From positions 1 through 20,773 of the IMG/VR virus record IMGVR_UViG_3300034172_000006: a stretch of DNA of 20,773 nt. One strand, written 5' to 3'. Under the pieces are notes generated by a model that worked only from the letters and a program-made list of their open reading frames with translations, was not told the origin of the DNA and searched no databases. A program made the translations under genes and the position numbers. Shown here piece by piece: positions 5,216 through 20,773 of this stretch. Numbering within the stretch: the first letter of the stretch is position 1; each line of letters starts with the position of its first letter. Source of the DNA: a virus.

Positions 5216-5250
5216 CAACATGAACTCAAAATCCTTATCTCGGAGGCAAC

Positions 5251-5478
5251 ATGTCAGAAGAAACGAAAACGCCCCCCCAGGTTAAACAGGGAGCAGTCAC
5301 TCCCAGGAGTTTACGCGTCGAGGGCTTCCGCGGCGCTTACCTGGATACACGCTTTAATGATCAGGGCCTCAGTGAAGGCCCGGTTTCAAGCGCGACCGAA
5401 AAGGCGCTGCGCGAGCAGTTCCCAGGTGCCAAGATCGAAGCCGTTCGTGAGAAGAGTGGGCCGGAAGAGACGAAGTAA
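5251..5478 (+). CDS. Small unknown head-module protein (75 aa)
   Basis: I do not recognise this protein. It is short, soluble and charged, with no signal peptide or membrane segment. A central GFRGAYLDTRFNDQG stretch looks structured, followed by a likely helix (SSATEKALREQF) and a polar tail. Translation looks real: GGAGG at 5242-5246 sits just upstream of ATG 5251, and the gene ends in tandem stops (TAATAA). It is the first gene after the capsid stem-loop and lies 17 bases before the adaptor gene. Small genes in this place are often capsid decoration or head-completion proteins, but that is only an inference from position. Confidence 0.75.
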   Translation: MSEETKTPPQVKQGAVTPRSLRVEGFRGAYLDTRFNDQGLSEGPVSSATEKALREQFPGAKIEAVREKSGPEETK

Positions 5479-5495
5479 TAAGAAGCGGAGGGGCG

Positions 5496-6158
5496 ATGCC
5501 GTTAGAGGCCGACAACATTCTCGGCGTGTGCTACCTCGCACCTGAGGAATTCCTTTCACGGGCGCGCCTCTTCGGTGCCGGGATGAGTATCAACGGGTTG
5601 AATGCCGAGGGCGTTAAGCCGGTGCTGGCAATGGCCTCGCGCGCCATTGACGCACACTGCGGTCGCAGCTTTACCCCCGATGCCATCACGGAAAATCACA
5701 GGTGGAACGGCGCAACGCGGCGCATCTCGGTCAACCAGCCACCGGTGATGACGCTCTCAACGTACCGGCTAAGAACTGCGCCCTCTCAAGTACAGAGCTT
5801 CAATGTCGCGGACGTGCTGATCAACAACCAGGAGAATTATCTGGAATTAGCCACCTTGGCGGCAGCCGTAGGGATGACCGGTGACTTACTCGGTCTTGGT
5901 CTTTGCGAAGCACAAGTCGAGGTCACCTACCTGAGCTACCAGGCGATTCCGCAGGCGGTTGCCGCAGCATGCGGCTTTACCGCGGCGAAGATGGCCAATA
6001 TGGGTTATGTCAGCGCTCAGGTACCGGATGGCTTCCAGAAAATCAGTCTCGGCGGATTCAACGCCACGCGCGCGGGGTTGGGTGCCGGTGACGCTCTGGA
6101 AATCCCTCCCATGGCACAACAACTATTGAGCGCCTACAGGCGGATCGCACTCGGGTGA
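5496..6158 (+). CDS. Head-tail adaptor (gp6-like connector)
   Basis: The protein is 220 residues and should form the first ring docked under the portal. The N-terminal half is mostly helical and includes the pattern VKPVLAMASRAIDAHCGRSF, which matches the 'helix, then cysteine/glycine-arginine-phenylalanine' signature of gp6-like connectors. A beta-rich middle follows (WNGATRRISVNQPPVMTLS, the usual place for the family's strand pair). The C-terminal helices (about 150-220) start with YQAIPQAVAAACGF. It is longer than HK97 gp6 (about 110 residues) and closer to the size of the larger adaptors of GTA-like phages. GGAGG at 5487-5491 precedes ATG 5496. It is followed after 3 bases by the head-closure gene. 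Confidence 0.8.
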   Translation: MPLEADNILGVCYLAPEEFLSRARLFGAGMSINGLNAEGVKPVLAMASRAIDAHCGRSFTPDAITENHRWNGATRRISVNQPPVMTLSTYRLRTAPSQVQSFNVADVLINNQENYLELATLAAAVGMTGDLLGLGLCEAQVEVTYLSYQAIPQAVAAACGFTAAKMANMGYVSAQVPDGFQKISLGGFNATRAGLGAGDALEIPPMAQQLLSAYRRIALG

Positions 6159-9193: not shown

Positions 9194-12100
9194 ATGTCGG
9201 AAATCGAGAGACTTGTCGTTACTTTCGTCGGCGACGATCGCAATCTCAATAGAGCCTACTCGTCAGCTGAAACAGGCGCGCGGCGGACGGCCAGAAATAT
9301 ATCCTCAACCTTAGGCGATAAAAATATCTTCGGGGGCTTCGCCTCCAATTTCCAGTCACAGCTACGTGATGCCCAGGGCAGATTTGTCAGTAGCGGAGCG
9401 TCGTTCCTCCGCGACTCATTGACTGTCACCGCCGGCGACATTCTGACAGGCGGCATCTCGAAAGTCTCCGGTCTGACGAAAGACCTCGTTATCCGTGGCG
9501 TCGAGTACAACAATCTGCTTGAACGCTCCAACATCAGCTTTGAAGTGCTGCTCGGCTCGCAGGAAAAAGCCAAGCAGCACATGAAGGATTTAGCCGCGTT
9601 CGCTGAGAAGGCGGGCAGCTTTCAACTCACTGATGTCATACGCGGCTCGCAGCGCCTTCAGGCGATGGGCTTCGATGCGCGCAACGTCGTCTCGGTTTTG
9701 ACGGACGTTTCAGATGCAGCCTCGGCGATGGGCGGTGGGCAGGAGATTCTCGACGGCATTGTCACGGCTCTTGGTCAGATGAAGGGCAACGGTCGTCTGG
9801 CTGCTGAAGAGATGAACCAGTTGACCGAGCGCGGCATTCCGGCGTGGCGCATGCTCTCGGAATTAACTGGTAAAACTCAGTCCGAGTTACGCAAACTCTC
9901 GGAGCAGGGCAAGCTCAACGGTGGCGTTGCCGTCGAGGGCTTCCTCCGCAAATTCCGAGAATACTACGGCGGCCTGGGCGACAAGCTGTCGGATACGTTC
10001 GATGGGCGAATGTCGAACTTTAATGATCGGCTCGACCGCAGACTCGCCGAAGGTACGCTGAGCGTCCAGCAGCGTACCGGCGAGTTGGTTCAGGCGGCGT
10101 CCGATGTTCTCAACTCGCCGCAGGGCGAGGCTGTTGCAAAAGGCTTCGACTCGATTGCTAATCTCGCCATGAAGCCCGTTGAGCTGCTCATTAAGGGAGC
10201 GACGACCGGATTTGACCTCAAGGCGCTAATGTCTCAGCTGGCTTGGGATATGGTCGGCGGCATCAAGGAGGGTCTAGAGAATAAAGCTGGAGAGTTAAAG
10301 GACGAAGGCAAGAAAGTTGTTACCAACATCTACGGTGCGATAAAGCAGGAAGCTGGCATTAACTCTCCGGCGAAAAAGTTTATCCCGCTCGGCGAAGGCA
10401 TTGCCGAGGGTCTGCAGGTTGGCTTTACCAGCTACATGCTCTCGCACGCCGGCTCTTTCGTGCAGGAGGGGCTGGCAACAATCCGCGTCCGCACGGAAAA
10501 GACGCTCCGCGAGTTGGCAGAGAAATTCAATCTCGACCTCGACCGGCTGGCAGCAACGAACGGAATAGGTAAAGACACGCCGCTGCAAATCGGTCAGGAA
10601 ATCATTGTTCCCGCGACGACCGCCGTGCCTCGCAATAAGCAATCACGACGCAGCACTAATCCTTCGCTCGCCGATAAAGCGCGCGGCAACTATGCCGACC
10701 TGCTCAAGCGCGAGCCGGGCTTCGAGCGGCGCTTGAATCAGGTCGCCTCTTATCTCGGCATCGAGCCCGAATGGCTGCTCAATACGATGGCCGTCGAAAC
10801 CATCGGCACATTCTCGCCCAAGATCGAGAACGGCAAAGGCTATACGGGGCTGATTCAGTTCGGACCGGATGCACGAAAAAGTCTCGGTGTCTCCAACGAC
10901 CAACTGAAGAAGATGACGGCCACCGAACAGCTCGATTACGTGCAGCAGTATTACGAGATGTTTAAGGCGGTCGGCCAGATGAAGTCGCAGGCCGACGTGT
11001 ATAACGTCGTCACCGGTGGTCAGAACCTCCTGTCGGGATTTCCTCTTGATCCAAATTCCATCGTCTACGGGCGCGGCTCGAAAGCGATGAAAGTCAAAAG
11101 TAATCGTGACCTGTGGGACGTAAACGGCGACGGGCAGGTGCAGAACTTCGAGTTGGGCACGGCGGCTGCGAAGGGCGGCTTTACCTCGACAAACCCGATG
11201 CCCGTCAGGATTGTGAGCGCAGGCTCGGATGACACAGCAGAGCGCATCACCTCAGCACAACGTGAAATCGACGCGCTGCGCGAACAGCGCGCGGCCATAG
11301 CGCGTCGCGCTGAAACGCTCTTGGAGATGCCGCTCAATGATGAACCTCAGAGCGCAGTCGTCGCCGAGGTCGGCGTAGACCCGGAGGTCGCCGCCAGGCG
11401 CGCACAGTCAATGTTGCAGATGCGCGCGCGCCTCGCCGAACTGGATACGCTCATCGAGCAAAAGCAGCAGGAAATCGAACGGCTCGTTACTGCGTTGCCG
11501 GACGCGGTTGATCGGACGAATGAACTGGCCGACGCGGCGCGGCGCTCAGCTGATGCAGCACGCGAGCAGGCCGAGGCGCAGAAGGAACAACGAGTCGAGT
11601 TGACGAAAGCAGAGCAGGCGGCGCTCGACGCCCGCAAGGACACAGATGACCTCAACACCTCATACGACCGCACGGCTGTCGCTGCGCGACAGGCGGCGCG
11701 TGAAATCCGTGAGCTTGATCTGACCATCGCAAAGAAGCCGTCATTTACCATCACAGGCTCATACACATCCTCCACTACTCCCGCGCTGTCCACTGGCCCA
11801 GCAGAGTCGCAGGAAGATTATTTTAAGCGCCTCACTGACATGGGTGGTGACAAGGATAAGTACAGAGGGGTACGCGATGCGTTCGTGAACTCCATGAAAG
11901 AGGGATTTACGGATGTCGAGCATCTGTTCGACGGGACGCTTTCTCGCATGGCGATTAGTTTCACCCAGGCCATAGAGGACATGGCCATCAACAGGCTGGC
12001 GAATATCGCCGGTGCCCTCATATTTGGTGACGGCAAATCGGGCGGCCTCTTTGGTAAGCTGGAAGGCTGGCTGACGAATGCCATTTACGGCCAGAGCGCC

Positions 12101-12952
12101 GCCTCTCAGCTTCACCCTTCAGCAGGAAGCGGCGGCTTCGGCTCACCCGGGGGCGGCACACCGGGGGCGCTTCCCTGGCTTGGCCAGCGCTGGGACACAC
12201 CTCCCACGTCGCCCTTCAGCGACAGTAACCAAATCAATCAGACGATTACGAGCACGTCTCAAGCTTCGACGCGCAGCATTACGACGAAGATTGAGACCTC
12301 ATCTGACAAGATTACCGCTTCCGTCACGGCAGCCGAGCGAGACATCACCGCGAGCGTTGATAGCGTCGGGCAGACCGTCCAGCAGCTCGTCCCCGTGCAG
12401 GACGGCTTTTGGAGCGGACTGGGTAAAGCGTTACTCGGCAGCACAATCAGCACTCTCGTCGGCGGTTTCGTCGGCGACATCTTCACTCCGACTGAAGACT
12501 CCGGCGAGACCGGGCCGCAGCCGACGCACGCGCCCACGCTTAAATCCGCGCAGAAGAAAGCACGCGGCGGGCCCATCTTCGGGGCGGGCACTGGCACATC
12601 TGACGACATTCCCATCTGGGCGAGCAACGGCGAGCACATGATTACGGCTCGCGCCGCCGACTACTACGGCCATGACTTCTTCGATAGAGCGAACCGGCTG
12701 GAACTGCCGCGCCAGGCTTACGCCGAGGGCGGCGCCATCTACGACGACGTGCTCTATCGCCCGCAATCTATCGGCTCGCTCTCGCTTGAGCACGCTCGCG
12801 CCGGTGCGGCTGAGGGCGGCTCGAAAATAGTTAATTTTCATTATGCGCCACAGTTGCCGACGCCGACGGGGAGCGTCCCCGTGGAGTCCAGCGCTCAGGC
12901 TGCCACCCGTGGCGCGCAGGAGTTGCAACATCTATTAGCGAGGAATAGTTAA
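9194..12952 (+). CDS. Tape measure protein with LysM, lytic transglycosylase-like and EF-hand elements
   Basis: The protein is 1252 residues, sets tail length and is ejected ahead of DNA. Residues 100-290 carry the conserved tape-measure N-terminal region (NLLERSNISFEVLLGS, then the long helical MNQLTERGIPAWRMLSEL segment). Residues about 430-473 read as a LysM peptidoglycan-binding domain (TLRELAEKFNLDLDRLAATNG ... LQIGQEIIVP). Residues about 505-640 look like a lytic transglycosylase: FERRLNQVASYLGIEPEWLL, candidate catalytic Glu535 in AVETIGTFSP, then TGLIQFGP (551-558). At 642-653 a perfect EF-hand loop follows (DVNGDGQVQNFE; ligands D642, N644, D646, Q648, E653). A long coiled-coil-like region spans 680-850. 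The C-terminus has the usual glycine-rich GEHMITARAADYYG end (1122-1170). GGAG at 9181 precedes ATG 9194. Confidence 0.9.
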   Translation: MSEIERLVVTFVGDDRNLNRAYSSAETGARRTARNISSTLGDKNIFGGFASNFQSQLRDAQGRFVSSGASFLRDSLTVTAGDILTGGISKVSGLTKDLVIRGVEYNNLLERSNISFEVLLGSQEKAKQHMKDLAAFAEKAGSFQLTDVIRGSQRLQAMGFDARNVVSVLTDVSDAASAMGGGQEILDGIVTALGQMKGNGRLAAEEMNQLTERGIPAWRMLSELTGKTQSELRKLSEQGKLNGGVAVEGFLRKFREYYGGLGDKLSDTFDGRMSNFNDRLDRRLAEGTLSVQQRTGELVQAASDVLNSPQGEAVAKGFDSIANLAMKPVELLIKGATTGFDLKALMSQLAWDMVGGIKEGLENKAGELKDEGKKVVTNIYGAIKQEAGINSPAKKFIPLGEGIAEGLQVGFTSYMLSHAGSFVQEGLATIRVRTEKTLRELAEKFNLDLDRLAATNGIGKDTPLQIGQEIIVPATTAVPRNKQSRRSTNPSLADKARGNYADLLKREPGFERRLNQVASYLGIEPEWLLNTMAVETIGTFSPKIENGKGYTGLIQFGPDARKSLGVSNDQLKKMTATEQLDYVQQYYEMFKAVGQMKSQADVYNVVTGGQNLLSGFPLDPNSIVYGRGSKAMKVKSNRDLWDVNGDGQVQNFELGTAAAKGGFTSTNPMPVRIVSAGSDDTAERITSAQREIDALREQRAAIARRAETLLEMPLNDEPQSAVVAEVGVDPEVAARRAQSMLQMRARLAELDTLIEQKQQEIERLVTALPDAVDRTNELADAARRSADAAREQAEAQKEQRVELTKAEQAALDARKDTDDLNTSYDRTAVAARQAAREIRELDLTIAKKPSFTITGSYTSSTTPALSTGPAESQEDYFKRLTDMGGDKDKYRGVRDAFVNSMKEGFTDVEHLFDGTLSRMAISFTQAIEDMAINRLANIAGALIFGDGKSGGLFGKLEGWLTNAIYGQSAASQLHPSAGSGGFGSPGGGTPGALPWLGQRWDTPPTSPFSDSNQINQTITSTSQASTRSITTKIETSSDKITASVTAAERDITASVDSVGQTVQQLVPVQDGFWSGLGKALLGSTISTLVGGFVGDIFTPTEDSGETGPQPTHAPTLKSAQKKARGGPIFGAGTGTSDDIPIWASNGEHMITARAADYYGHDFFDRANRLELPRQAYAEGGAIYDDVLYRPQSIGSLSLEHARAGAAEGGSKIVNFHYAPQLPTPTGSVPVESSAQAATRGAQELQHLLARNS

Positions 12953-13707
12953 TGCTCACTCTCCATCAGGTTCTACTCAATCCCGAATACTCGAATCTCG
13001 CGCGCGGCGGGCCGGAGAACAATAACGCCTTCTCGTTGACCAGCAACAACGTGCCGCAGGTCAACATCTCCAGCCCGAACTACGTCGGTAAATACACCAT
13101 CGAGTATGAAGAGATGGAAGAAGAGGAGCGCATCGCGCTCCGCGAATTCATCATCCTGCGTCGCAATAACGCCTACGCTTTTCTCTTCCTCGCGCCAGAT
13201 GATTTCGAGGACAACCAGCGCGGAGTCTTTCTCAAGGCCGACCGCTCGGTGGCGACGGTCGTCGAGGCCGGAGTGCTTTCCTATTACATGGCGAAGCTCT
13301 ACCAGGACGCCGCCACCAGCTATAAACGCCGCATCACGAAGCCGAGCCCGGGCGCGAACTACGAGGGCGACCTGGGAACGATTGTCTATCTCAATGACAA
13401 CCCGGTGAGCCTGACGCCCGCGCCCGGACTCGAAGACGTGCCGCTCTATGCGCAGGCCCTCTACGGCCAGTCGTTAATGGAAGACACCGGCATCTCTATG
13501 GACTTCGCCCAGGGCAAGCTCATCCTGACCGAAGCTGCCGCAGTCGCCTACGCCGGCCAGACTCTTCGCTGGACAGGCTCGTTCTTTATTCCGGCCATCT
13601 TCACGTCCAAATTCAACGAGGTCGCGATTGATACCTCGGCGGTTTCAAGCGGCAAAGGAATCAATCTCATGGAGGTGCTACCTATCGGCATCGGCATCAC
13701 GATATGA
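12952..13707 (+). CDS. Distal tail protein, DUF2460 family (GTA gp12-like)
   Basis: The protein is 251 residues and likely forms the ring at the tail tip that links the tube to the baseplate hub. The sequence is beta-rich throughout and has the DUF2460 features: an early NPEYSNLARGGPENNNAFSL, a helix with EEMEEEERIALREFIILRRNN (cut here for length) and FLFLAPDDFED, then YKRRITKPSPGANYEGDLGT and a closing LRWTGSFFIPAIF. In the Rhodobacter-type gene transfer agent this is gp12. ATG 12952 overlaps the tape measure stop by one base and GAGGAA at 12940-12945 precedes it. The stop overlaps the start of the next micro-ORF (ATGA), so translation is coupled on both sides. Confidence 0.82.
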   Translation: MLTLHQVLLNPEYSNLARGGPENNNAFSLTSNNVPQVNISSPNYVGKYTIEYEEMEEEERIALREFIILRRNNAYAFLFLAPDDFEDNQRGVFLKADRSVATVVEAGVLSYYMAKLYQDAATSYKRRITKPSPGANYEGDLGTIVYLNDNPVSLTPAPGLEDVPLYAQALYGQSLMEDTGISMDFAQGKLILTEAAAVAYAGQTLRWTGSFFIPAIFTSKFNEVAIDTSAVSSGKGINLMEVLPIGIGITI

Positions 13708-13805
13708 TAATTGCACTCCTGACATATCTGCTCGTTCTCGTGACCGTCTTCGGTGCCGTCGCGCTCATGTTGCGCTCGTGCTCGCGGGCGAGGGGGCGTG
13801 ACTGA
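13704..13805 (+). CDS. Small single-span membrane protein (33 aa), coupled on both sides
   Basis: The 34-codon frame lies exactly between the distal tail and hub genes. Its ATG (13704-13706) overlaps the upstream stop as ATGA, and its own stop (13803-13805) overlaps the next ATG as TGATG. The peptide has one hydrophobic stretch of about 20 residues (IIALLTYLLVLVTVFGAVAL) after the initiator Met, then a basic tail (RSCSRARGRD), which predicts one membrane helix with the tail on the cytoplasmic side. There is no recognisable domain. The exact double overlap argues that it is translated rather than chance. Its role is unknown: small holin-like, membrane or tail-related proteins are possible, and none is shown. 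Confidence 0.7.
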   Translation: MIIALLTYLLVLVTVFGAVALMLRSCSRARGRD

Positions 13806-14695: not shown

Positions 14696-15168
14696 GCGCA
14701 GACCGCATCGTCACACGCCTCGACGTGGTGCGCTCGCTGGAGAAGATTCTCGGCCAGCCCTACGCGCACCAGGGGCGCTTACAAGAGGTTGGCGGGCGCA
14801 TCACGGGACCCGGCACTGACTGCTGCGGGACGCTTCTCTTCGCCGGCCATGACCTCGGAGTAACCAGCTTCGAGATGCTCGGCTATGCCGCCGACCCGGA
14901 CGGCTCGTTCGAGCAGATTCTGGAAAGCCAGTTAATTCGCCTGCCGCACTTTAGAGACGCGCAGGTCGGCGACGTGCTCGCGCATGACTTCGGGGAAGGC
15001 ATTCAACATTGTTCGGTCGTCGTCTCCGTGCATCCGACGCGCCGCGACTGGCAGCAATTCAAAGTCATCCACGCGACCAGAAGCAACGGCGTCCATCGCG
15101 GTGTATTTGAGTTGAAATATTACAAGGCGCTCGTGCGCGCCTATCACATACCGGGGGTGCAGTACTGA
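14692..15168 (+). CDS. NlpC/P60-family tail-tip peptidase (GTA gp14-like)
   Basis: The 158-residue protein starts at ATG 14692, which overlaps the hub stop as ATGA. An upstream in-frame start at 14572 would lie inside the hub gene and is rejected. NlpC/P60 enzymes cut peptide or amide bonds in peptidoglycan cross-links. The catalytic set is visible: Cys44 in GTDCCGTLLFAGHD (aspartate then cysteine, with Cys45 next to it), His106 in GIQHCSVVV, and His127 in VIHATRSNG. The length is normal for a phage tail cell-wall peptidase. It probably opens the murein for the tail and is carried in the tip complex between hub and tip protein, as in GTA gp14. Its stop overlaps the next start (TGATG). Confidence 0.85.
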   Translation: MSADRIVTRLDVVRSLEKILGQPYAHQGRLQEVGGRITGPGTDCCGTLLFAGHDLGVTSFEMLGYAADPDGSFEQILESQLIRLPHFRDAQVGDVLAHDFGEGIQHCSVVVSVHPTRRDWQQFKVIHATRSNGVHRGVFELKYYKALVRAYHIPGVQY

Positions 15169-18100
15169 TGATTCGTCGCACCCTCCATCCACTCGCGCGC
15201 GTCGTGACGTTGCTCTGCTTCGTCAACCTGTGCGCGCTCGTCGCTCACGCCGATCCAATATCGGGTTCGGTGATTCTCACGAGCCTGGTTGTCTCGGCGG
15301 CCACGACCGCCGCCAGCTTTATCACGCAACGCCTGTTGACGCCGAAGCCCAAGGGTGTGATTCGCGGCCAGCAGCAGGGTTCGATGCAGCTCTCGGATTC
15401 GACCTACAACGTCCCGATCAAAGAGATTTACGGCGCGCGCTACGCTTCCGACAACATCGGCGGCTCAAAGGTCGGTTGTAATTTCATCTGGGCCAACCGC
15501 GAGGGAATTAGAGAAGTCAGAGAGACCGTCCCAGCTTCGGGTGGAGGCAGCGGCAAAGGCCCGCCGAAGCCGCCGCCTGAGACGCGCGTCAGCTATAACC
15601 TTGACCTTGCGGGACTCGTCGGCCACGGGCCTTTGAACGTCCTCAAAATCAAGTTTGACCAGGATACGGTCTATGACATGACGCGCGCTGGAGTTGCGGC
15701 AGTCTCCCGCTTTTACGAGGGCGAGACGGCGCAGCTCGTGGACGCCGAGGTTATCTCCGGCGAAATCTATTCGAGCGGGCAGGCGGCGGAGATTGAGGCC
15801 GGAGGCTCGGCCTTTTTCGGCGACGTGCGCGCGACGACTGCGGGCGAGCACGAGCTGAGCATCTACTTCAATGCTTCGCCCGGCACAGAGTTGACCGTCG
15901 AAACCAATGGCGGCGCGCCACAGGTCGTTACTCTCTCTGACAGTGAGGCGGCGCTCGGCATCGTGTCTCTCTCTGTCATCCTGAACGCGAGCGAGACCAA
16001 CGAGATTCTACTGACGGTGACGGGCGCCGCTGCTGCCCGGCTCGACCGCATTTTCGTCTATGACCTCGACGGCGGCGGCATTACCGGCGTGCTCGATGAC
16101 TTCTTCCCGGCAGACGCGGCCATTGATAACTACCTGCTGCCAGACCCCTACGAACTCGACTCGCGCCCGCGCCTGCGTCACAGCTTCGTGCCGACGCCGA
16201 ACGAGACGGACGGCTCTGTCTCGGCGCAGATTGTCGGCGGCGTCTACGCCAGCATGACCATCTACGAAGGCAACTCCACGCAAGAGCCTGACCCGGTGAT
16301 GGCCGCGGACGTGGACGCTCGTGAGGGAGTTGAGAATTCCTGCCCGGCGTATCTCGATGAGTGCTATATCCGGTGGACGCAACTCAACATCTCGAAATAC
16401 AACCGCGTGCCGCAGGTCACAGTCACCGCCGAGCATAAGACCATCCGGACGGTGGCCGACATTATCAATCATCGCGCGCAGCGCTCAGGCCCCGTGGCCG
16501 ATGACCTGGACATGACGGAAGCCAGCAACACCTACGTGCGCGGCTTCGTCATTGACGAGCTTCAGCCGGTCAAGCGTGACATGGATGACCTGGCGGCGTT
16601 CTTCAATCTGACCTTCGTCGAAGACCTGACGGGAAAGATTGTCGCGCGAGACCTCTCGTCGCGCGCCATCGCGGCCACGCTTACGGAAGACGACCTCGGC
16701 GCTTACATCCTGGGCGACCAGAAGGCTTCACCCGATTTGGTGTCCTCACGCGTCGTTGACCCGCCGCAGTTGTGGGAGCGCGTCGGCATCTCGTACTTCA
16801 ACCCGGACCCGAAATCAGACTTTCAAATCGGTCGCGCCGAAGACGTGCGCTCGATGTACGGGGCGAAGACGCACGAAACATTTGAATTCAACATCACGGC
16901 CACCGATGCCGAAGCCATGCACGTCGCCCGCCGTCTCATGCAAAAGCACTGGATGGAGAGTGACCCTGACACGTTCACCGTGCAGCATCGCTTTGCTTAC
17001 CTGACTCCGGCGCAGCGCATCCAGATTCCGAAGGACGGCGAGCTACAGACGGTTCGCATCATGGAGATTACGGGCTACGCGCCGGGGCTTCTGACCATCA
17101 AGGCCGTGCCCGACGACCTCTCGGTCATCGCCGCGCCGCGCGTCGGCGTCATCGGCGCACCGGCGCGCACCTATTATCCGGGCAACACTGTCGCCACCTT
17201 CATGGACATTCCACTGCTGCACCCGCAGGCGCTGGCCGGAATGTATGTCGCGGCCACGCCGCGCGATTTACGGAGCGGCGTCTGGAACGGCGCTGTCGCA
17301 TGGCGCTACAAGGGCAACGAGTGGCAGCAGATGACCACGTTCACGCAGATGGCGACCATGGGGCGCTGTGTAACGGCTCTGCCGGAAGTGCCCGGTGGAT
17401 GGGTCGAGGGCGAGTTCGACACAACCAGCACCGTCACGATGGATTTGTTTGCGAACCTTGAGCCGCCGACCTTCACCGACGAGCAGATTGCAGACGGCCT
17501 CGGCGTCTGGGTCATCGGCGATGAAGTCTGTCAGGTCGCCCAGTGGACGCGCGATAACTCGCAGCCTAACCGTTGGGTCGGCTCGCGCATCATGCGCCGC
17601 CTGAAGGGCACAGAAGCGGCCAGCGCATGGCACGTCGAGGGAGAGCGTTTAGTGCTGATGAACTCCGCCGTGCGCTTTATCGAACTGGACGTGACCGAGA
17701 AAGACATCCCTCGCACCTGGAAAGTACAGACCGCAGGCGCGCGTCTTTCCGATGCCGGGCCGATTTCGGTGACGTGGACTGGCCGTAACATCCGCTCTAT
17801 CCCGGCTGGCGGCAGCGCTGACTCCGGCGTGCCCATCCTCCAAGACCCTTCGACGCCGACCGTAACCGAGACGGCGGGCGGCAACTGGGTCGTGCGCTAC
17901 CCGATGCCGCAAGACCAGGCGAAGACGCTCATGAAGTCACGGGTGCGATTTACGCGCATCTCTGACGGCGTGGTCGTGGCATTAGAGTCTAACGGGCTGA
18001 ACACCAGTTACACGCGCGAGGCTTTCGCCTTCGACTGCTTGGCCGAATATGGCTGGCAAAACCAGTGGCGCGGCGCAACCGGTACAGAATCGGACGGTTG

Positions 18101-18236
18101 GTCTGAGTGGTCAACGGGGGCGACGCTGCACGCCATTGGCGGCCCAACGCCCAACCCGGCAGATGACACTATTACCAGCTTCGATGATGACCCGTCAGAT
18201 TCACGCGGTTACACCGAACAATATAACTATCAGTAG
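15168..18236 (+). CDS. Large tail tip protein (GTA gp15-like) with Sec-type N-terminal signal
   Basis: The protein is 1022 residues and is likely the tail-tip/baseplate protein that finishes the tube end. The N-terminus is unusual: RR, a hydrophobic core at 12-26 and a VAHA|D cleavage-like site (after residue 28), then a second hydrophobic stretch at about 33-52 of the kind found at the N-terminus of GTA gp15-like proteins. A glycine/proline-rich linker lies at about 120-140. Residues about 182-298 look like an inserted beta-sandwich, CBM6/35-like (ending in RLDRIFVYDLDGG). Residues about 437-660 match the Phage-tail_3 type region (VIDELQPVKRDMDDLAAFF; WERVGISYFNP; MEITGYAPGLLTI). Residues about 890-1010 are fibronectin-III-like. 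ATG 15168 overlaps the peptidase stop. Tip function is firm; export of the signal is inference. Confidence 0.8.
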   Translation: MIRRTLHPLARVVTLLCFVNLCALVAHADPISGSVILTSLVVSAATTAASFITQRLLTPKPKGVIRGQQQGSMQLSDSTYNVPIKEIYGARYASDNIGGSKVGCNFIWANREGIREVRETVPASGGGSGKGPPKPPPETRVSYNLDLAGLVGHGPLNVLKIKFDQDTVYDMTRAGVAAVSRFYEGETAQLVDAEVISGEIYSSGQAAEIEAGGSAFFGDVRATTAGEHELSIYFNASPGTELTVETNGGAPQVVTLSDSEAALGIVSLSVILNASETNEILLTVTGAAAARLDRIFVYDLDGGGITGVLDDFFPADAAIDNYLLPDPYELDSRPRLRHSFVPTPNETDGSVSAQIVGGVYASMTIYEGNSTQEPDPVMAADVDAREGVENSCPAYLDECYIRWTQLNISKYNRVPQVTVTAEHKTIRTVADIINHRAQRSGPVADDLDMTEASNTYVRGFVIDELQPVKRDMDDLAAFFNLTFVEDLTGKIVARDLSSRAIAATLTEDDLGAYILGDQKASPDLVSSRVVDPPQLWERVGISYFNPDPKSDFQIGRAEDVRSMYGAKTHETFEFNITATDAEAMHVARRLMQKHWMESDPDTFTVQHRFAYLTPAQRIQIPKDGELQTVRIMEITGYAPGLLTIKAVPDDLSVIAAPRVGVIGAPARTYYPGNTVATFMDIPLLHPQALAGMYVAATPRDLRSGVWNGAVAWRYKGNEWQQMTTFTQMATMGRCVTALPEVPGGWVEGEFDTTSTVTMDLFANLEPPTFTDEQIADGLGVWVIGDEVCQVAQWTRDNSQPNRWVGSRIMRRLKGTEAASAWHVEGERLVLMNSAVRFIELDVTEKDIPRTWKVQTAGARLSDAGPISVTWTGRNIRSIPAGGSADSGVPILQDPSTPTVTETAGGNWVVRYPMPQDQAKTLMKSRVRFTRISDGVVVALESNGLNTSYTREAFAFDCLAEYGWQNQWRGATGTESDGWSEWSTGATLHAIGGPTPNPADDTITSFDDDPSDSRGYTEQYNYQ

Positions 18237-18247
18237 AGGGAAAGAGA

Positions 18248-19966
18248 ATGAACCGTCTATTCATCGGATTGCTTTTGCTGCTGGCTCTCTGGCCGGCGAG
18301 CGCGCACGCGCAGGTTTCCGGCTCGACGCAGTATCCGGGGGCTCTGGATAACAGCATCTCGACACCGCAGGCCGCCGATAATAAATACACCAGCCTCACG
18401 GTCGCGCTCACGGCGTCGGCCTCAACCGTTACCGTCGCCTCGACGACAGGCTTTCCCACAGCCGGGCTGTTCTACGTCGGCAACGAGCAGGTGCAGTACA
18501 CCGGGACGACCGCAACGACTTTTACGGGTTGCACGCGCGGCGCATCGAACACGGTCGCCACCGAGCACCCCGTCAATTCAACCGTGCGAGAGCAACTCGC
18601 AGCGCCGCACGTTAACGGCATTCGTGGCGCTGCTCTCGCGCTTGAAGCTAAGGTCGGGGTGGGCGCGAGCAATGCTTCGGCAGCCGCGACCGGCCAGTGT
18701 ATCGTCAAGCAAGCGGACGGCTCGACGGCTTGGGCGACCTGCGGCAGCGGGACATCGGGCACAGTGACGAGCGTCGGCGTCTCAGCGCCTTCGTCCATCT
18801 TCAGCGTCTCCGGCTCTCCGGTCACAACTAACGGGACTATTAACCTCACGCTTCAGACGCAGGCCGCCAACCGCGTCTTCGCAGGCCCGGCCTCCGGCGC
18901 TGACGCGCAGCCCTCGTTTCGCGCTCTCGTCGCCGACGACATCCCCGCGCTCGATACCTCGAAGCTGACGACGGGTGCGCTCGCGGATGCGCGGATCGCG
19001 TCGGCCGCGACGTGGAACGGCAAGCAGAATGCCCTCGGCTACACGCCTCTCAATCCAAGCAACAATCTGTCGGACGTGGCGGCCGCCGCGACGGCCAGGT
19101 CAAATCTCGGACTGGGCACGGCAGCGACTCGCAACGTGCCCCCCAGCGGCAACGCAGCGAGCACAGAGGCCGTGATAGGGAGTGATACCCGGCTGACTGA
19201 TGCGCGCACGCCCCTCTCGCATACGCACACCGCTTCGCAGGTCACTGACTTCAGCGCGGGCGTCGAGACGGCGCTCGGCAACCTCGGCTTCAGGTCGCTG
19301 CGCACCAATCTCGCCGGCTACTGGAAGCTGGACGAAGCGTCAGGCAACGCCACCGACTCAACCGGCGCTTCCACCCTGACCGACATCAACACCGTGACCT
19401 CGGCGGCGGGCAAGCGCGGCACGTCTCGACAGTTTACGCACGCCAACAATGAATATTTCTCGGCGGCAGACTCGGCCACGCTCTCAACCGGCGACATTAG
19501 TTTCACCATTTCGGCATGGGTCTATCTCGACTCCAAAACCAACGGGATGATTATCGTCGCTAAGGATGATTATCCGGAGCGGGAGTTTATTCTCCAATAT
19601 GATTCGACGATAGATAGATTCGTCTTTTTCGTCTTCAACTCTGCGGGCGCTTCAGTCTCGGTGCAGGCCACAACCACAGCCCCGTCACTCTCGACCTGGT
19701 ATCACCTGTTGGCCTGGCACGACGCCGAGGCCGACACCATCAACATTCAGGTCAATAACTCCACTATTGACACGACCGCGACCGCAGGGCTGGTCGTCTA
19801 CAATTCAACTGCCGCCTTCACCGTCGGCGGGCGACTGGTCTTCGGCAGCCCGAACGGCACTTTCGACGGGCGCATTGATGAACTCTTATTCACGAAGCGG
19901 GTGCTCTGGGCTTCTCAACGCACGGACTTATATAACTCCGGCCTGGCTCTTACCTACCCGTTCTAG
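18248..19966 (+). CDS. Tail fibre with signal peptide and C-terminal LamG (lectin-like) domain
   Basis: The protein is 572 residues. The start has a Sec signal: NR, a leucine-rich core (4-15), and ASAHA|Q cleavage after residue 21. Residues about 38-100 hold a small beta domain common near the base of tail fibres (SLTVALTASAST, then VGNEQVQYTG, CTRGASNTVATEHP). The middle (about 180-330) is low-complexity fibre-like sequence with elements such as LGYTPLNPSNNLSDVAAAA and HTHTASQVTDF (325-335). Residues about 353-572 form a LamG-like jelly roll: AGYWKLDEASGN, then ISFTISAWVYLDS, STWYHLLAWHD and FDGRIDELLFTKRVL. LamG domains often bind glycans, so it may bind the host receptor. GAGGG (18236-18240) precedes ATG 18248. 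A second, related fibre gene follows after 25-64 bases. Confidence 0.82.
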   Translation: MNRLFIGLLLLLALWPASAHAQVSGSTQYPGALDNSISTPQAADNKYTSLTVALTASASTVTVASTTGFPTAGLFYVGNEQVQYTGTTATTFTGCTRGASNTVATEHPVNSTVREQLAAPHVNGIRGAALALEAKVGVGASNASAAATGQCIVKQADGSTAWATCGSGTSGTVTSVGVSAPSSIFSVSGSPVTTNGTINLTLQTQAANRVFAGPASGADAQPSFRALVADDIPALDTSKLTTGALADARIASAATWNGKQNALGYTPLNPSNNLSDVAAAATARSNLGLGTAATRNVPPSGNAASTEAVIGSDTRLTDARTPLSHTHTASQVTDFSAGVETALGNLGFRSLRTNLAGYWKLDEASGNATDSTGASTLTDINTVTSAAGKRGTSRQFTHANNEYFSAADSATLSTGDISFTISAWVYLDSKTNGMIIVAKDDYPEREFILQYDSTIDRFVFFVFNSAGASVSVQATTTAPSLSTWYHLLAWHDAEADTINIQVNNSTIDTTATAGLVVYNSTAAFTVGGRLVFGSPNGTFDGRIDELLFTKRVLWASQRTDLYNSGLALTYPF

Positions 19967-19980
19967 GGGCGCGCGAGGCT

Positions 19981-20058
19981 TAGAGGAAACGATGAAAACA
20001 CGTACCACAGTATTTCAATCGGAGGAAGTGATGAAAACACGTACCACAGTATTTCAAT
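19981..20058 (+). repeat. 39-bp tandem duplication of ribosome-binding site and start
   Basis: Unit 1 (19981-20019) and unit 2 (20020-20058) are directly adjacent and agree at 35 of 39 bases. The last 29 bases are identical and all four differences are transitions. Each unit holds its own GAGGAA Shine-Dalgarno and an ATG (19992 and 20031) 39 bases apart, so both starts are in the same frame with no stop between. The second start places the signal peptide at the N-terminus; the first adds 13 residues containing two glutamates. This could be recent slippage, a deliberate dual start, or an assembly artefact. Confidence 0.85.
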
Positions 20059-20773
20059 TCGCGCTGCTCTTCATGCTGCTCTTTCTGAGCATGGCTGCCG
20101 CCAGCGCTCAGGATCAACCCTTCAGCTCAAAATATCCTCCGGCGCTCGATTCGGACGACTCGCTGGGGCGGACAAAGGACTTGTCCAGGACAACGCTCTC
20201 GGTGGCGCTGACCAGTAGCGCAGGCTCGGCTACGGTCGCCGATACTTCCAGCTTTCCGTCAAGCGGCTCGCTCAAGATTGATAATGAGAATCTGACCTAT
20301 ACGTCGAAGACCTCGACGCAGTTTCTAAACCTGGCGCGCGGAGTGGGCGGCACAGCCGCCGCTTCGCATAACATCGGCGTGGCCGTGCTCAGTCCTCAAC
20401 TCTCGTTCCAGCGTGACGTCTTAGTCGCCGCCATTAAAGCCCTGCAAGCCAAAACAGGATTTGGAACTTCGACGGCTGCCGGGGCGGTCACCGGGGCGGT
20501 GCTGCAAAAGAACTCGGACGGCTCGACCGGATGGGGCGCGCTCAATTCAAGCGTCGTCTCGACGGCGCTCGGCTTTACACCGCAACCGGCTGATGCGGAT
20601 TTAACGGCGCTGGCCGCGCTCTCGACCACAGGGCTGGCGAGGCGCACCGGCGCGGGTACGTGGATGACCGTGCCTGCGCCTGCTGGTGATGTGGTGGGAA
20701 CGAGCGACCCGCAGACGCTCAGCCAAAAGACTCTCTTGAACGCCCTGCTGCAAAACGGCACGCTCAATTATGC
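20031..20773 (+). CDS. Second tail fibre with signal peptide, paralogue of the first (3' end cut by window)
   Basis: The frame is open from ATG 20031 (or ATG 19992, in frame) to the last base without a stop, so the gene continues beyond the window; 247 codons are seen. From 20031 the protein starts with a Sec signal: KTR, a hydrophobic core (about 7-21) and ASA|Q cleavage after residue 26. Residues about 50-115 match the small beta domain of the upstream fibre (LSVALTSSAGS; IDNENLTYTS; LARGVGGTAAASHN), so the two genes share a base-attachment-like domain. Later sequence has fibre-type motifs (LQKNSDGSTGWGALN, ALGFTPQPADADLTALAAL). The receptor-binding end lies outside the window. GGAGGA (20021-20026) precedes 20031. 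I chose 20031 because it places the signal peptide at the very N-terminus. Confidence 0.78.
   Translation, partial: MKTRTTVFQFALLFMLLFLSMAAASAQDQPFSSKYPPALDSDDSLGRTKDLSRTTLSVALTSSAGSATVADTSSFPSSGSLKIDNENLTYTSKTSTQFLNLARGVGGTAAASHNIGVAVLSPQLSFQRDVLVAAIKALQAKTGFGTSTAAGAVTGAVLQKNSDGSTGWGALNSSVVSTALGFTPQPADADLTALAALSTTGLARRTGAGTWMTVPAPAGDVVGTSDPQTLSQKTLLNALLQNGTLNY

Follow-up and report, generated by a model that had tools for sequence, protein, structure and literature searches.

Why would three neighbouring genes for the tail tip and fibres of a phage each begin with an apparent signal for export, when the textbook view is that tailed-phage virions assemble in the cytoplasm? The genes lie at the end of a 20,773-base IMG/VR virus record, which was analysed over its whole length and is referred to here as the window. 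It has a siphophage gene order: portal, protease position, major capsid protein, connectors, tape measure, DUF2460 protein (the distal-tail position), hub (Phage_BR0599), NlpC-like peptidase position, tip, fibre 1 and fibre 2. Two scans of genome contigs returned no relatives. The features on which the argument turns are as follows.

13704..13805, + strand: micro-ORF for a 33-aa membrane peptide, coupled to the hub gene; none like it found in L014, L087 or G001
15168..18236, + strand: tail-tip hub, a GTA/roseophage-type megatron by domains, fold and gene order
15168..15251, + strand: Sec-type signal of the tip, 28 residues, VAHA/D (the slash marks predicted cleavage); score 12.13; kept in the relatives L014 and L087; AlphaFold2 helix 2-26
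15267..15338, + strand: second hydrophobic tip helix, residues 34-57, from the AlphaFold2 model and N-terminal alignment with signal-less megatrons
18248..19966, + strand: fibre 1, with signal, 55-aa phage structural domain (residues 48-106; phrog_2885 / phrog_708 baseplate wedge) and LamG lectin fold (residues 400-555; Pfam Laminin_G_3)
18248..18310, + strand: Sec-type signal of fibre 1, 21 residues, AHA/Q; score 11.68
19986..20063, + strand: 39-bp tandem duplication at the fibre 2 start, 34/39 identical
20031..20773, + strand: fibre 2, cut by the contig end, with signal, PPALD linker and fibre-1-type 55-aa domain; 39% identical to a fibre of the related phage G001 (L085:7072-9549)
20031..20108, + strand: Sec-type signal of fibre 2, 26 residues, ASA/Q; score 12.33

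Two other genes of the window have unusual domain content. The portal gene (1-1962) encodes a fusion with a phosphoesterase domain of the 2'-5' RNA ligase/LigT type at the C-terminus (Pfam 2_5_RNA_ligase2, 1e-12, and a weak Acb1 match), and the tape measure (9194-12952) contains a LysM domain and a stretch, residues 500-640, that matches peptidase and baseplate-hub families.

Sec-type N-termini of the tip and fibre genes

By their sequence all three N-termini are Sec-type signals, for which export and attachment are predicted. The tip opens with MIRRTLHPLARVVTLLCFVNLCALVAHA/D, fibre 1 with MNRLFIGLLLLLALWPASAHA/Q and fibre 2 with MKTRTTVFQFALLFMLLFLSMAAASA/Q, and in each the n-, h- and c-regions are all present, as a basic n-region, an uncharged hydrophobic h-region and small residues at -3/-1. 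Cleavage is predicted after residues 28, 21 and 26, respectively, in agreement with the sites named in a preliminary description of this DNA. We scored N-termini with a home-made, rule-based measure that combines n-region charge, the best 9-residue hydrophobic core and the -3/-1 residues, calibrated on E. coli K-12, where 11 exported Sec/SPase I proteins scored 8.7-11.9 and 38 of 39 cytosolic proteins scored below 6; as 6 of 22 inner-membrane proteins reached at least 8, the score reports a Sec-targeting N-terminus and does not separate a cleaved signal from a membrane anchor. The tip and fibres scored at or above the known exported proteins, while the top score among the remaining 15 genes of the window was 3.3. 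Of 319 genes that lie upstream of the tip in related loci, 1 reached a score of 9, as did 14 of 855 ORFs of at least 200 aa across all loci, several of the latter being relatives or wrong starts. At these two background rates the chance of finding at least 3 such genes among 18 is 2e-5 and 3e-3, which supports the earlier view that three in a row are unlikely to have arisen by chance.

Other types of N-terminal signal fit poorly. The cores are Leu/Phe-rich and followed by A-x-A, not the weak Gly/Ala-rich h-region without a cleavage site of a SAR domain; the +1 residues are D, Q and Q, with no lipobox Cys for SPase II; and there is no S/T-RRxFLK motif of a Tat signal, RR being found in the window tip only and absent from the L014 and L087 tips and from the fibres.

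The annotated starts hold up. The tip's ATG and the preceding gene's stop codon overlap (TGATG), an arrangement shared by the L087 tip, and ribosome sites precede both fibre 1 (AGGGAAAGAGA-ATG) and fibre 2 (GGAGG-AAGTG-ATG). The 39-bp duplication repeats the fibre 2 ribosome site, ATG and first nine codons, in frame and 39 bases upstream (ATG 19992 / 20031); a start at ATG 19992 would add 13 residues, and the signal score is then lost. The membrane micro-ORF, once proposed to belong to the same pathway from a position just upstream of the tip, in fact sits upstream of the hub gene and has no counterpart in L014, L087 or G001, and is probably not part of the signal-bearing set.

The tip protein and its megatron relatives

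By domains, gene order and fold, the tip is a GTA/roseophage-type megatron. It matches NCBIfam GTA_megatron at 4e-46, below that model's curated cut-off, and Pfam Phage-tail_3 and Rcc01698_C, both above cut-off; Foldseek matched it to 8gtc_M, 6tba_8A and 8rk3_b; and it lies behind the hub and peptidase in the order DUF2460, hub, peptidase, tip. It departs from other megatrons at its very start, where in place of a Gly-rich, uncharged iris/penetration segment a 28-residue signal-like helix precedes the hydrophobic segment.

Used alone as a query against viral contigs, the tip returned no matches, and L014 and L087 were the only two close tip relatives found (44-46% identity). Each opens with a signal-like segment ending HADP, so that the signal is retained in 3 of 3 close members, with HADP invariant. 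The segment diverges faster than the rest of the tip (pairwise 35, 36 and 52% identity versus 44, 46 and 62%), and despite this divergence its charge, core and A-x-A stay in all three. Among 62 loci with megatron-like matches, a credible signal was seen only in L014 and L087; four other high-scoring megatrons owed their scores to wrong upstream starts overlapping the preceding gene, and one more had a Gly-rich start. The tip of G001, whose capsid protein is 58% identical to the window's, is without a signal. The signal-less megatrons of Bajun and L088 start MADP; because these starts align with the HADP of the window tip, the signal looks as though it was added before an old N-terminus, a correspondence that is suggestive, from few sequences.

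Side features of these tips were also observed. The two closest tip genes (L014:10323-13808 and L087:9974-13984) both contain a DUF4214 insert; the C-terminus of the L014 tip is an intein-like Hint domain, and L087 has a similar stretch there in the alignment. A 277-aa gene upstream of the L087 tape measure (L087:4193-5026) has a plausible Sec signal, MKTLPALFLLSFLFCFSSVFS/Q, with a score of 8.5. The G001 tip (L085:3051-5727) seems split, possibly by a frameshift, with an FN3-like continuation ORF at 5248-5727.

For the tip, export has to be weighed against a role in membrane penetration. RcGTA and roseophage R4C megatrons have a hydrophobic 'iris/penetration' N-terminus of ~46 residues, for which insertion into the outer membrane has been proposed (PMC7296036, PMC10276861), and the signal-like helix of the window tip could be a remodelled first half of that domain, never cleaved, which would enter the target envelope as a hairpin. 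The AlphaFold2 model, of low to moderate confidence, has two helices of membrane length (2-26 and 34-57) with a short linker between them and is also compatible with a membrane hairpin; helix 34-57 is read as the counterpart of the megatron iris/penetration N-terminus, and the total N-terminal length is near that of long-type megatrons. Other megatrons, however, start Gly-rich and uncharged, whereas the window, L014 and L087 tips share Arg/Lys n-regions, Leu-rich cores and [AV]HA/D; the sequence after HA/DP reads like the MADP start of the signal-less megatrons, as if the helix had been added; and in a 2026 preprint the iris helices that had been observed are assigned instead to the tape-measure protein. 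We consider an uncleaved penetration helix a serious possibility, somewhat short of even odds. Since the RcGTA and R4C megatrons already carry such an N-terminus, penetration is nearly as likely as export for the tip, and the two are near-equal readings.

Signals on the fibres and in cultured phages

The case for the fibres is stronger than that for the tip. Both fibres share the 55-aa domain after the signal, and their position behind the tip together with phage fibre/baseplate structural domains predicts that they are siphophage tail fibres present in the virion. The AlphaFold2 model of fibre 1 was unusably poor (pLDDT 37). Because the same 55-aa domain is found without a signal in marine T4-like baseplate/structural proteins, the fibre signal appears to be an add-on; a scan with the fibre domain, which serves as a negative control, recovered mostly marine phages without signals. 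In G001, Sec signals are present on both fibres behind the tip (MRRFLLLPLLLLMASAQAEA/Q and MCKLITRLLLLLVLAAAAAPRAAA/Q), and the second of these has the PPALD linker and domain of window fibre 2 and a C-terminal GDSL esterase. Sec signals were also found on the 1253-aa fibre of MW202444, an uncultured spring phage, and on the L088 fibre.

The G001 fibre at L085:7072-9549 combines a LamG-like region with its C-terminal GDSL/SGNH esterase, likely a sugar deacetylase. Directly behind the G001 capsid gene, L080:11748-12305 encodes a signal-bearing 185-aa protein with four Cys that resembles the start of G001 fibre 1 (TCDPSTGDVY / SCSPTSGKVY).

Five cultured phages of Acidobacteriota are public, and a text search of the paper describing them found signal peptides nowhere mentioned (PMC11924767). 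We found Sec signals on five fibre-region genes of the podophages Tunturi 1/2 (gp12, gp13, gp14, gp16 and gp17) and on two genes of the siphophage Tunturi 4 (gp113 and gp114); two of the five were without such signals, in the structural genes of Tunturi 3 and in the fibres seen of Tunturi 5. In Tunturi 2 (L174:9802-22744), 5 of 6 consecutive fibre-region genes bear signals, one with a pectate-lyase fold and one with 33 Cys. An acidobacterial host for the window is only suggested, by the Tunturi parallel alone. The expectation that relatives would carry the same N-termini was thus upheld for the fibres (G001, Tunturi 1/2, Tunturi 4, MW202444 and L088), and for the tip in L014 and L087 only.

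The six large signal-bearing Tunturi proteins contain 1.5-2.6 Cys per 100 aa, versus a median of 0.45 for 29 virion genes of these phages that lack a signal (Mann-Whitney p = 1e-4, by a test picked after the pattern was seen). Signal proteins of G001, L088 and L080 have four mature Cys each, several closely paired. A need for disulfides as the motive for export is supported for the Tunturi phages and agrees with G001, but not with the window fibres, which are Cys-poor (3 in fibre 1, none in the visible part of fibre 2); because of this, oxidative folding cannot be the whole reason.

The main rival to fibre export and docking is that these genes encode secreted non-virion proteins, such as lectins, esterases or lyases, which would act on the surface or matrix of the infected or lysogenic cell to block superinfection or release depolymerase. 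LamG, the GDSL esterase of G001 fibre 2, the pectate-lyase fold and chitobiase-type domains are all usual in secreted enzymes, and exported phage-coded proteins are known (Lom, Cor lipoproteins). Nevertheless, the genes occupy the fibre position directly behind the tip, no other fibre candidate is found there in the window or G001, baseplate/fibre-type domains are present, and the Tunturi counterparts are annotated, by prediction, as fibre, tailspike or virion structural proteins. We regard such a non-virion role as rather unlikely. Docking peptides that are held in a pocket of the tip and are merely signal-like would have a precedent in the RcGTA head fibre, which docks via an Ile/Leu-rich N-terminus, but would not explain why unrelated fibres have basic n-regions and, suitably spaced, A-x-A with Q, D, S or T after it, and we consider them improbable. 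Chance, wrong starts or annotation artefacts are very hard to credit: in-frame alternatives exist for the tip (GTG 15204 and GTG 15270) and four other megatrons scored high through wrong starts, but the starts here are coupled or have ribosome sites, the signals recur in relatives and the 15 other genes are negative.

A possible assembly route and its relation to known systems

The preliminary description offered three options: export with attachment outside the inner membrane, a kept membrane anchor, or cleavage by host peptidase during assembly. For the fibres, the sequence evidence makes export followed by late attachment the likeliest of these. We propose, at a probability of roughly 45%, that distal tail parts leave the cytoplasm in this phage lineage, with Sec export of the fibres, periplasmic folding and a late docking step at lysis. 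The fibres would be made in late infection and carried across the inner membrane by host Sec, their signal would be removed at A-x-A, and they would fold and trimerise in the periplasm, probably with disulfides in some phages. Once lysis mixes periplasm with cytoplasm, they would dock on the tail tips. In other phages, fibres and tailspikes can attach late, outside the cell. For the tip signal, export, a kept membrane anchor and a helix that enters the membrane at the next host are alternatives.

This proposal starts from the signals, their starts, their recurrence in relatives, their absence from other virion genes and the Cys enrichment in cultured examples; export, cleavage, periplasmic folding and late docking are what we infer from them. 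Against it, tip export would starve tail assembly, because tail assembly starts from the tip, and the tip signal is absent in G001 and nearly all other megatrons. The window fibres are not Cys-rich, and signals are lacking in the structural genes of Tunturi 3 and in the fibres seen of Tunturi 5. A wider statement, that certain tailed phages, among them several that infect Acidobacteriota, finish their virions outside the cytoplasm, with fibres (and in one clade the tip hub) Sec-exported, processed by signal peptidase, oxidatively folded and joined at lysis, is one that we advance with considerable doubt.

If true, export-signalled, disulfide-prone fibres would amount to a second compartment of virion assembly, and would account for phages using secreted-type enzymes and lectins as fibres. 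Fibre export is directly testable with the cultured Tunturi phages. The signals also advise caution in annotation pipelines for which a signal peptide suffices to assign a gene to the host.

Our search of open-access papers found no Sec signal described for the tip or a fibre of any tailed phage; those reported belong to lysis or host-surface proteins only (endolysins, Lom and Cor-type lipoproteins), and one set of phage variable proteins is stated to have no signals. Like fOg44 Lys44, SAR endolysins, Lom and Cor lipoproteins, the proteins described here are predicted to use host Sec, but their signals stand on tail-tip and fibre genes, and their cores are Leu-rich with A-x-A, unlike the Gly/Ala-rich SAR type or a lipobox. 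The window tip resembles the megatrons of RcGTA (Rcc01698, gp15) and roseophage R4C (8gtc_M) in its hub-peptidase-megatron order, its Phage-tail_3 and Rcc01698_C domains and its fold, and differs from them in the charged, Leu-rich N-terminal helix with an AHA/D site before the hydrophobic segment. The closest parallels to the window as runs of fibre-region genes with Sec signals are gp12-17 of Tunturi 1/2 and gp113-114 of Tunturi 4, although these phages have backbones unrelated to that of the window and far more Cys.
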